Shown: one piece after another, positions 31,474 to 34,695 of the stretch | Position numbering within the stretch: the stretch's first letter is position 1 | Layout of the letters: each line of letters starts with the position of its first letter | Origin: Deltaproteobacteria bacterium | GTDB taxonomy: Bacteria > Myxococcota_A > UBA796 > JAFGLY01 | Length of the DNA: 60,442 nt | Direction: 5' to 3' | Assembly (NCBI GenBank): GCA_016927815.1 | Contig: JAFGLY010000168.1 | Location: 1 to 60,442 of the forward strand | The notes under the pieces: generated by a model | Told to the model about the DNA's origin: nothing | Databases searched by the model: none | What the model saw: only the letters and a program-made list of their open reading frames with translations | Position numbers and translations under genes: made by a program

Positions 31474-32241
31474 ATGATGCGCGTGGATCCGCAGAACCCT
31501 CGTGCCGTGGACCTCGCCCGCCGGCTCGAGCGCCTGCTGGACCCCACCTCGCTTCCCCAGGATCTCTGCCTGGTCCTCGGGGGGGACGGCATGATGCTGA
31601 GAACCCTCCGGGACCTGGACCCCCGGTTGGTGTTCCTGGGGCTCAACTGCGGCCGTGTCGGCTTCCTCATGAACGACGTGACCACGGTGGAGGACGTGGC
31701 CGTGCGGCTGACCGGGGGCCTGTGGGACGTCCACACGCTGCCTCGGCTGCGCCTGTCGGCACTGCTCTTGGAGGAGGACGCACAGGGGGAGCCCCGCAGG
31801 GTCCAGGCCACGGCCCTGAACGACGTCTACGTGGAGCGCACCACCAGCCAGACCTGCCACCTCCGCCTGTGGATCGACGGCATCGCCGTCGTGGAACGCC
31901 TCGTGTGCGACGGCATCGTCGTCGCGACGGCCCTGGGAAGCACCGCCTACTCCATGTCCGCGGGCGGGCCGGCCTGCCACGCAGGGGTGCCGAGCCTGCA
32001 CGTGACCCCGATCTGCGCCTTCAGCCCCCGCCTGCCCCCCATGTCGCTGCCCCTGTCCACGCGGGTGAGGATCGAGCCCCTCCACCCTCGGCGACGGCGT
32101 GTCCGGGCGGTGGCCGACGGTCTCGGCACGCCCCCGGTGGTGGACATCGAGGTGGAAGACGCGGCGAGCGATGCCCGCATCGCGTTCTTCACGGGCCACG
32201 ACTTCACCGCAACGCTCTTCCGCAAGGTGCTCCGGGCCTGA
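31474..32241 (+). CDS. nadK: NAD kinase (NADP biosynthesis)
   Basis: NAD kinase phosphorylates NAD to NADP. The product (255 residues; a second ATG one codon later is possible) contains GGDG in VLGGDGMMLRTL (about residue 36), LGLNCGRVGFLMND, DGIVVATALGSTAYSMSAGGP (STAYS substrate motif) and a beta-rich C-terminal domain. It is shorter than many bacterial NAD kinases because the N-terminal Rossmann part before GGDG is reduced. GGAGA lies upstream of the ATG. It is divergent from the DUF4388-DnaJ gene and convergent with the TrmA-like gene, 2 bp between stops. Confidence 0.88.
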   Translation: MMRVDPQNPRAVDLARRLERLLDPTSLPQDLCLVLGGDGMMLRTLRDLDPRLVFLGLNCGRVGFLMNDVTTVEDVAVRLTGGLWDVHTLPRLRLSALLLEEDAQGEPRRVQATALNDVYVERTTSQTCHLRLWIDGIAVVERLVCDGIVVATALGSTAYSMSAGGPACHAGVPSLHVTPICAFSPRLPPMSLPLSTRVRIEPLHPRRRRVRAVADGLGTPPVVDIEVEDAASDARIAFFTGHDFTATLFRKVLRA

Positions 32242-32243
32242 AT

Positions 32244-33659
32244 TCAGGGGGGGGCACCGACCCGCCGCCGTCGGGGTGCCGGGCGCGGAATCCCGGTCAC
32301 CGGTCCGTCCAGGACCGCGACGACCTCCACGTGGGCCCGGTGGGGAAGCATGTCGTAGGGGACCAGCGAGACGGGACGGAACCCCGAGGCGACGAAGGAC
32401 GCCAGGTTCCGGGACAGGGCGGTGAGGCTGCTGGACACGAACAGGAGGCGACCCGGCTCCAGCGCCCGGATGGCCTCCTCCACACCAGGATCCAGGCCCC
32501 TCCTCCCGAGGTGGACCACCACGCTGGGCGCGGTGCCTCCGAGGCGCCGGGCCACCCCGGGCACCGCCTCGCCTACCCGTCCTCCCATGAACTCGGCCTG
32601 GAGGCCGTTCAGGGAGGCCGCCGCCCGTGCGTGGAGGATCGCGTGCTCGTGCTCCTCCACGCCCAGGGCCCAGCCGGTCCGGCGGGCGGCCACGAGCGTG
32701 ATCCCTCCCAGGCCACAGTCGAGGTCCAGGACCGGCCGATCCGGAGGGAGCAGGGCCTCCACGTCACGGACCAACCGGTCGGCCAGCGACGGGTTGGGCG
32801 CGAAGGCGTCCAGCGGGCCCACGAGGAGGCGCAGGCCCGCGACCTGCTCTTCTGTCGTGTCCCTCCCGAGGAGGTGGCGGGTGAGCCCTTCGGACGCACC
32901 GTCGAGCGCCGTGCTCCCTGGATCGTCGTCGAGGTGCAGGTGCACGCCGGCGAGATCGGCCAGTTCCATGGCTACGGCCTCGGCCAGCGCGCCGAGCACG
33001 GGTGCGCGGTGGGCAGCCACGAGGGTGGCCAGGATCTCCCCCGTGGCCCGGCTCTGCCGCAGGATGACGGACCGGAGGAGGCCGTCGCGTCGGCTGGGCG
33101 ACCAGGGTCTGACGTCCAACGCGATCACGTGGTGCGCGAAGCCCTTCATGGCCTGCTTGAGACCCGGGGTGACCACCAGGCATCCGGGGATCGGGATCAC
33201 GTCCCTCCCGTTCCGGCCTACGACCCCCAGCCGGATCCGATCCCGGTCCGACCGGCCGGCCACCAGGGCGATATGGTGCCGGAAGGCCTGGTCCCCGTCC
33301 GGGGACGCGACCATCGGAGCCGGCTCCCAGGCCTGGAGATCCACCGCCTCGAGCGCACGCCGGATCAGGTAGCGGCGCACCCGGGCCTGCCCGCCTGCGT
33401 CGAGGTGCATGATCGGGCAGCCGCCGCAGGTGCTGTACCGGTCGCAGGGCGGGTCGACCCGGCAGGGGTGCGGCGTGTCCACGGAACGCTCCCAGCGACC
33501 CAGGTCCTGGTGGGTCCCTCGGCGGAACACGTGGATCCTCGATCGCTCCCCCGGGATGCCCTGCCAGATCGCCAGGGGCTTCTCGCGGTTCGCCCTGGCC
33601 ACCGCCTCGCCGTGAGGCAGCCAGTCGTCCGGGGTCACCACCTCGTCCCGCTTCCACAT
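32244..33659 (-). CDS. TrmA/RlmD-family RNA methyltransferase homologue lacking the catalytic Cys
   Basis: The 471 residues resemble RNA (uracil-5)-methyltransferases. An N-terminal iron-sulphur cluster region has CDRYSTCGGC (C-x5-C-x2-C) with a further Cys in IPGC, and the Rossmann core has LDLDCGLGG as the AdoMet loop. The family's nucleophile motif VSCNP followed by TLxRDL is replaced here by FVSSSLTALSRNL, with Ser at the Cys position, and the DPPR loop reads LGRRG. The protein may therefore be non-catalytic or a different enzyme. The ATG at MWKRDE is chosen as start; longer in-frame extensions read as non-family sequence. It converges with nadK. Confidence 0.8.
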   Translation of the reverse strand: MWKRDEVVTPDDWLPHGEAVARANREKPLAIWQGIPGERSRIHVFRRGTHQDLGRWERSVDTPHPCRVDPPCDRYSTCGGCPIMHLDAGGQARVRRYLIRRALEAVDLQAWEPAPMVASPDGDQAFRHHIALVAGRSDRDRIRLGVVGRNGRDVIPIPGCLVVTPGLKQAMKGFAHHVIALDVRPWSPSRRDGLLRSVILRQSRATGEILATLVAAHRAPVLGALAEAVAMELADLAGVHLHLDDDPGSTALDGASEGLTRHLLGRDTTEEQVAGLRLLVGPLDAFAPNPSLADRLVRDVEALLPPDRPVLDLDCGLGGITLVAARRTGWALGVEEHEHAILHARAAASLNGLQAEFMGGRVGEAVPGVARRLGGTAPSVVVHLGRRGLDPGVEEAIRALEPGRLLFVSSSLTALSRNLASFVASGFRPVSLVPYDMLPHRAHVEVVAVLDGPVTGIPRPAPRRRRVGAPP

Positions 33660-33858: not shown

Positions 33859-34695
33859 ATGCTTTCCCTCTCCATGGCCGAGACGCGGTCCCCTGATCCC
33901 CCTACCGGCGTCCTGGACCGGATCTCCCGCGTCCTGGACGGCGCAGGCCTCGACGTGAACCACGCCCTGTACGACGAGGCGGTGGATCTGGCCCGCCAGG
34001 GCCTGCTGGGCCCGGCGCACGATCGCATCCGCATGCTCCTCTGCCTCGACCCGGACGACGGATCGGCCCGCCTGATGCTCGCCAAGATCCTCGTGGCCCA
34101 GTGCCGGTGGTCCGAGGCCCTGGCGGCTCTGGATGCGGCGCGAGAGGCGGGTGCCCATGTCCCGCCGTCCCTCCAGGCCGAGGTGGAGACGAACCTCGAC
34201 CGGGCGGATCCGGGCGGCCCGGTGCGCGTCCCCACCCGGGACCCCTCTGAGATGCGGAGCATGCGGGACGAGACCCGGCGCCTGCGTACCGAGAACACGC
34301 GCCTGTTGCGCGATCGGAGCCGTCTCAAGAGTCGCGTGGGCGTCTGGTCCACCGCCACCGCGATCCTGGCGGGCGTGTGCATCGTACTGCTCGCCTGCCT
34401 CTGGGCCGGAGCGGGCAGCGAGACGCCCGAGGCCGCGCCCGCCCTCACGGCGGCCGACGAGACGCCGTCCACCCGTGCAGCCCCGCTTCCCGAGGCCCCA
34501 CGCGCGGTGGGCGATCTCGAGCCCGCGCCTGCCCCTGTGCGGCGGCACGTCGTGCAGGAGGGGGACACCCTCTACGCGCTCGCTGCCCGGTACTACGGAA
34601 ACCCGTCGAAGTGGGAGCAGATCCGAGCCGCCAACCGGGACAAGGTGCGCCGGGGTGCCGGTCTGAGGCTCGGAGACGATCTGGTGATTCCGTAG
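33859..34695 (+). CDS. LysM-domain protein with TPR-like N-terminus and membrane helix
   Basis: The 278-residue protein has an N-terminal TPR-like helical region (about 25-115, ALYDEAVDLARQGLLGPAHDRIR), a short coiled coil (about 130-160), one membrane helix (about 165-190), a Pro/Ala-rich periplasmic linker and a C-terminal LysM domain (about 228-277, HVVQEGDTLYALAARYYGNPSKWEQI) that binds peptidoglycan. It is thus a bitopic inner-membrane protein tying a cytoplasmic TPR domain to the cell wall. No ribosome-binding site is strong; a second ATG six residues in is an alternative start. Function unknown. Confidence 0.8.
   Translation: MLSLSMAETRSPDPPTGVLDRISRVLDGAGLDVNHALYDEAVDLARQGLLGPAHDRIRMLLCLDPDDGSARLMLAKILVAQCRWSEALAALDAAREAGAHVPPSLQAEVETNLDRADPGGPVRVPTRDPSEMRSMRDETRRLRTENTRLLRDRSRLKSRVGVWSTATAILAGVCIVLLACLWAGAGSETPEAAPALTAADETPSTRAAPLPEAPRAVGDLEPAPAPVRRHVVQEGDTLYALAARYYGNPSKWEQIRAANRDKVRRGAGLRLGDDLVIP

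Follow-up and report, generated by a model that had tools for sequence, protein, structure and literature searches.

The window, a 60,442-nucleotide stretch of DNA from an uncultured Myxococcota genome (a MAG), encodes a 471-residue protein, P0001, of the RlmC/RlmD/TrmA kind that has lost its nucleophilic cysteine together with a set of other catalytic and substrate-contacting residues, while every cysteine ligand of the iron-sulphur (Fe-S) cluster is kept, and the same nucleophile has been lost repeatedly among its orthologues. A sequence-only reading of this DNA had reported that the nucleophile motif reads VSSSL, with Ser at the Cys position; it was right about the lost nucleophile, but this change understates the case, being one of a whole residue set.

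Fold and family of P0001

The gene lies where that reading had placed it, on the minus strand, with its ATG at 33659, its coding part at 32247-33659, its stop codon at 32244-32246 and no internal stop over the 471 codons (Table 1). A Pfam search of P0001 gave nothing above the cut-offs and weak generic methyltransferase matches only, whilst the NCBIfam rumA profile (RlmD, TIGR00479) matched with 154.8 bits (3e-45), below the curated cut-off of 183.55; the Cys-bearing orthologue L006 scored 246.2 bits against the same profile. A sequence search of solved structures matched an archaeal m5U enzyme, RlmCD and RumA. The AlphaFold model of P0001 (mean pLDDT 89.8) had RlmCD (TM 0.84-0.87), RumA (TM 0.76-0.78), archaeal m5U enzymes and TrmA as its top PDB matches. 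The profile match, the structure matches and the confident model together indicate a full TRAM/Fe-S/central/methyltransferase protein, with the overall fold of COG2265 ((TRAM), Fe-S/central and class-I methyltransferase domains).

P0001 thus shares the three-domain fold, the TRAM domain, AdoMet motif I and the Glu base with E. coli RlmD (RumA) and RlmC and with S. pneumoniae RlmCD, and the Fe-S ligands with RumA. Unlike P0001, those enzymes possess the nucleophile Cys, Phe263, Gln265, Asp363 and the CNP motif; P0001 in turn differs from them in scoring below the NCBIfam cut-offs and in an extra basic C-terminal tail, of which P462 and R464 are conserved whether or not a member has the nucleophile and are absent from E. 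coli RlmD.

Table 1. Positions of P0001, its motifs, its neighbours and a paralogue in the same genome (window coordinates unless a contig is given)
Feature	Position	Strand	Basis or remark
P0001, nucleophile-less RlmC/RlmD/TrmA-fold protein, 471 aa	32244..33659	-	Intact ORF, NCBIfam, AlphaFold, PDB matches
TRAM (RNA-binding) domain, residues 7-60	33480..33641	-	W13, G17, G34, I35, G37, E38 common to 31 canonical orthologues
Fe-S ligands C72, C78, C81 (C-x5-C-x2-C)	33417..33446	-	Aligned with RlmD C81/C87/C90
Fourth Fe-S ligand C160 (IPIPGC)	33180..33182	-	Aligned with RlmD C162; kept in 26/26 nucleophile-less orthologues
Lost uracil/AdoMet-contact motif, GDFFQTNP to LDAFAPNP (F263A, Q265A)	32787..32813	-	
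AdoMet motif I LDLDCGLGG, kept; Y to D at 314	32703..32729	-	Residues 311-319
Lost (D/N)PxR motif, VHLGRRG (D363H, P364L)	32496..32522	-	
Lost nucleophile loop, VSSSLTALSRN vs family xSCNPxxLARD	32400..32447	-	Ser410 codon 32430-32432
Retained general-base Glu445 (= RlmD E424)	32325..32327	-	
Basic C-terminal tail RPAPRRRRV	32256..32288	-	Whole orthologous group
NAD kinase gene (start approximate), convergent neighbour, synteny marker	31474..32241	+	61% identical in syntenic L071
LysM-type protein, divergent neighbour, synteny marker	33859..34695	+	
C173-type paralogue of the window genome (L002/L222)	G000:C173:47332-48363		

Residues lost and residues kept

P0001 was aligned with RlmD, RlmC and TrmA from the E. 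coli K-12 genome, and catalytic residues are numbered here after E. coli RlmD. The nucleophile C389, which in COG2265 sits in an (S/A)CxP loop, aligns with Ser410 of P0001 (codon AGC), and the uracil-recognition residues Phe263, Gln265 and Asp363 correspond to Ala285, Ala287 and His383, the first two being present in all 36 Cys-bearing orthologues. Further changes are N390S, P391L, D397N and R132A, and the DPPR loop, which the sequence-only reading had found unconserved, reads HLGR. The six cysteines of P0001 are at 66, 72, 78, 81, 160 and 315, five of them in or beside the Fe-S region and C315 within the AdoMet loop, at a place where Cys is common in the family; we looked by alignment for a replacement at the nucleophile site, as the earlier reading had advised, and none of the six aligns there, so another Cys as nucleophile is rejected.

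The losses are concentrated in the pocket. Of the 103 columns that 31 canonical orthologues conserve, 30 lie in catalytic motifs and 73 elsewhere; P0001 is changed at 12 of the 30 pocket columns versus 6 of the 73 others (Fisher p=0.0003). A sequencing error or frameshift is rejected, as the ORF is intact and 12 pocket positions are changed. The same contrast bears on whether P0001 was inactivated recently and is now, with selection relaxed, turning into a pseudogene, which we regard as quite unlikely. P0001 is known from a single genome without a close relative, many pocket residues have gone together, its terminal branch is a little longer than its sister's (0.71 vs 0.55) and two other Cys-bearing genes of the family could cover for it; however, the 471-codon frame is intact, 67 of the 73 conserved non-pocket positions are kept, which argues that the rest of the protein stayed constrained after catalysis was lost, and the same Cys-less state is stable in family f2 (see below). 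For P0001 itself this points to continued constraint indirectly, with the pocket-versus-rest contrast as its one basis.

The retained features are those of an RlmD-type protein. The C-x5-C-x2-C ligands recognised from sequence were confirmed by the RlmD alignment, which adds a fourth, C160, to make the complete set of Fe-S cysteines (C72, C78, C81 and C160). The AdoMet loop had also been correctly identified; D312, G316, G318 and E335 are kept, so that motif I and a putative ribose-binding acid (E335; E315 in RlmD numbering) would both be present, and the general base Glu424 is kept as Glu445.

Recurrent loss of the nucleophile in the order

A search of 71 genomes of the class (E <= 1e-40) found an orthologue in 59, all in one order, and the orthologue set comprises 62 sequences, including four deeper-branching second copies. 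The nearest relative of P0001 is L006, in the same-family genome G001, which is 49% identical, canonical (SCNP, FFQTNP, NPARRG) and found in the same gene order of NAD kinase, orthologue, LysM, TPR, GshB-like and MnmE genes. As this syntenic, same-family orthologue is canonical, the ancestor of P0001 was an ordinary enzyme. Several f2 genomes carry an extra, deeper-branching canonical copy (SCDP, SCNP or SCHP) beside the Cys-less protein (G034, G057, G054 and g8 genomes; L048, L051, L069, L191-L195). An f2-type Myxococcota gene is also carried by CAMAWH010000035.1 (L095), from a MAG titled Klebsiella pneumoniae, a title that looks wrong.

The Cys is absent from 26 of the 62 orthologues (about two fifths). 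Family f2 accounts for 21 of them; the others are P0001 itself, those of two g17 species (SSNP, SSNS) and those of a single species each of g34 (SGNP) and g25 (AHNP). The four Fe-S cysteines are present in every one of the 26. Within the whole set their loss is confined to L034 (G027:C447:633-2027), which has G/S/S/S in their place and keeps SCNP and FFQVNP. In f2 the loop is mostly GSNP, the Gln265 position is Pro in 21 of 21 members and the Cys position is filled by S (14), T (2), N (2), A (2) or V (1), so no substitute nucleophile is conserved in this family, which argues against a Ser nucleophile; with S, G, H, A, T, N and V found at this position across the losses, Ser as a new nucleophile is unlikely in general.

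With the catalytic columns left out of the tree, parsimony gives five losses of the Cys. A single ancient dead paralogue, with all Cys-less members in one clade, is rejected (p-AU 0.00016). Topologies joining P0001 to the f2 clade (p 0.40) or uniting the four f3 members (p 0.06) are compatible with the sequences; synteny and family membership favour a loss in the P0001 line independent of that in f2. Close f2 pairs have dN/dS values of 0.08-0.32, methyltransferase domain included (0.20-0.25 in the canonical pairs listed), and invariant f2 positions are concentrated in the TRAM region, the Fe-S region and the basic tail. At these values the Cys-less f2 genes are not pseudogenes but a long-lived, constrained lineage. 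The sequence-only reading was blind to this recurrence.

We also considered a lost rRNA target as the cause. Three genomes with a Cys-less orthologue retain U at both 747 and 1939, so the enzyme's loss there cannot be put down to a vanished target base at these sites, and this cause is rejected for these genomes; a search of the window genome for a 23S gene found none, none being assembled. One g17 genome with a Cys-less orthologue has an A-to-G change in its 23S sequence (GCCGTAACTATGACGG; L214, G022:C7:54959-55000) upstream of U1939, in an otherwise invariant stretch.

A check of the host genome for a second canonical paralogue, which the earlier reading had proposed, found two further family genes with the Cys, on contigs C215 and C173. 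The Cys is kept in 20 of 20 paralogues examined in the phylum and in 51 of 51 sampled members, mostly from other phyla, a sample partly found by canonical motifs and so biased. In families f1 and f2, and also in several f4/f5 genomes, the C173-type paralogues have lost their Fe-S ligands; the Cys is kept in 48 of 48 sequences of this type. This Fe-S loss is repeated among the relatives of that type (L223, L233, L236, L238, L240, L242 and others). Within the same genomes, two sister groups of genes therefore degenerate in opposite ways, the P0001 group losing the Cys and the C173 type losing the Fe-S ligands. As the C173 type of the window genome and of f2 has the Cys without Fe-S, the reverse of P0001, the two might act together: P0001 would be a pseudo-subunit that offers a catalytically dead platform for RNA to a Cys-bearing paralogue, for example the C173 protein without Fe-S, much as in Trm6/Trm61. 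However, the Fe-S motifs are intact in the C173-type proteins of two Cys-less lineages, g17 and g25, which leaves strict pairing unsupported, several genomes with a Cys-bearing orthologue, including the sister G001, have the Fe-S-less C173 type, and one clade dominates the overall correlation; we consider such a partnership highly improbable.

Proposed function and significance

Mutants of S. pneumoniae RlmCD indicate what the P0001 changes would do. Q283A leaves ~8% of the activity at U747 and ~50% at U1939, D381A ~2% and ~4%, and RNA binding is not severely affected in either (PMC6235398); F281A and D381A retain their affinity for AdoMet, and a glycine in the Fe-S loop of RumA touches the RNA (PMC5614603). 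Because P0001 is changed at the equivalents of F281, Q283 and D381 as well as at the nucleophile, it is expected to bind RNA, and possibly AdoMet, and to be unable to make m5U. The pattern of residues, the fold and the orthologues thus all bear out the earlier proposal that P0001 should not be a normal uracil-5-methyltransferase.

We think it rather probable that P0001 binds RNA without being able to methylate it and is retained for a part in RNA folding or assembly, and of the three options that the sequence-only reading had offered, binding RNA without methylating is the best supported. Its ancestor was a working AdoMet-dependent RNA uracil-5-methyltransferase of the RlmC/RlmD type, whose line would have lost the chemistry and retained the TRAM domain, the central domain, the AdoMet fold, the basic tail and, probably, the [4Fe-4S] cluster, the pocket presumably decaying over time whilst the remainder was held. 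P0001 probably binds a structured loop of rRNA or tRNA, as in the family, and once bound would serve in folding, assembly or occupancy, in the way that dead TrmA, RlmB and METTL15 still do. Against this reading, a pure RNA binder would have no evident use for the Glu424 base and the AdoMet glycines that P0001 retains, and K131 (RlmD R132) is lost in P0001.

These retained residues would also suit methylation by another route, which had been suggested from sequence: P0001 could be rewired to bind AdoMet and methylate another atom or base without a covalent Cys adduct, via the retained Glu. AdoMet glycines, D312, E335 and E445 are all kept in P0001; within f2 the D363 position is acid or amide (D/N) in 21 of 21 members and the E424 position is Glu or Asp in 16 of 21, motif I of several f2 members has become a generic class-I loop (e.g. 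VIDVGAGVG), and TrmFO-like proteins with a Cys to Tyr change have been discussed in like terms (PMC7226160). However, F263, Q265 and D363 are gone from P0001 too, the losses share no new conserved residue at the nucleophile position and the AdoMet ribose acid is Gly in g8 members, and we hold a rewired methyltransferase to be rather unlikely.

Precedents exist for a folding or assembly role. TrmA is a tRNA chaperone independently of catalysis and dead Trm2 still works in yeast, and according to the same review a bovine mitochondrial Trm2 homologue is without a key catalytic residue (PMC11301382). These proteins belong to the same enzyme family as P0001, and in TrmA/Trm2 function outlives the loss of catalysis; TrmA itself, unlike P0001, has kept catalysis and has no Fe-S or TRAM parts, whereas in the P0001 group the genes themselves encode the loss, which recurs and has become fixed throughout one bacterial family. 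RlmB and RlmKL have a methylation-independent role in 50S assembly (dead RlmB(E198A), RlmL(N309A); PMC11194073), as a METTL15 mutant shows for ribosome assembly (PMC11197891), these being laboratory mutants of other families, unlike the naturally dead P0001. The Mollicutes TrmFO-like proteins, m5U-enzyme paralogues with the catalytic Cys changed to Tyr (PMC7226160), belong to an unrelated flavin/folate enzyme family and are a parallel to P0001, not homologues. The fold, the family and the non-catalytic functions of TrmA are therefore known; in an incomplete search of the open literature we found no match for a natural, recurrent, constrained nucleophile-less branch of Fe-S m5U enzymes.

The question of whether the methyl mark or the protein's action on the bound RNA is what preserves rRNA and tRNA methyltransferases has been addressed so far mainly with laboratory mutants. 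The proteins described here are natural mutants in which catalytic residues were lost several times and every Fe-S ligand was kept, and the order supplies matched pairs of living and dead orthologues, with the opposite contrast in the C173 paralogue; the P0001 group isolates the role of the [4Fe-4S] cluster in this family. Automated annotation may call such proteins m5U methyltransferases. We put at about even the chances of the broader reading, that an RNA m5U-methyltransferase has repeatedly become either a pseudoenzyme that binds RNA and carries Fe-S or an enzyme of different chemistry, with selection keeping RNA handling or a new reaction rather than m5U, and with the Fe-S cluster indispensable. 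That the nucleophile is missing from so large a share of the orthologues suggests that bacteria keep such enzymes for a purpose other than methylation.
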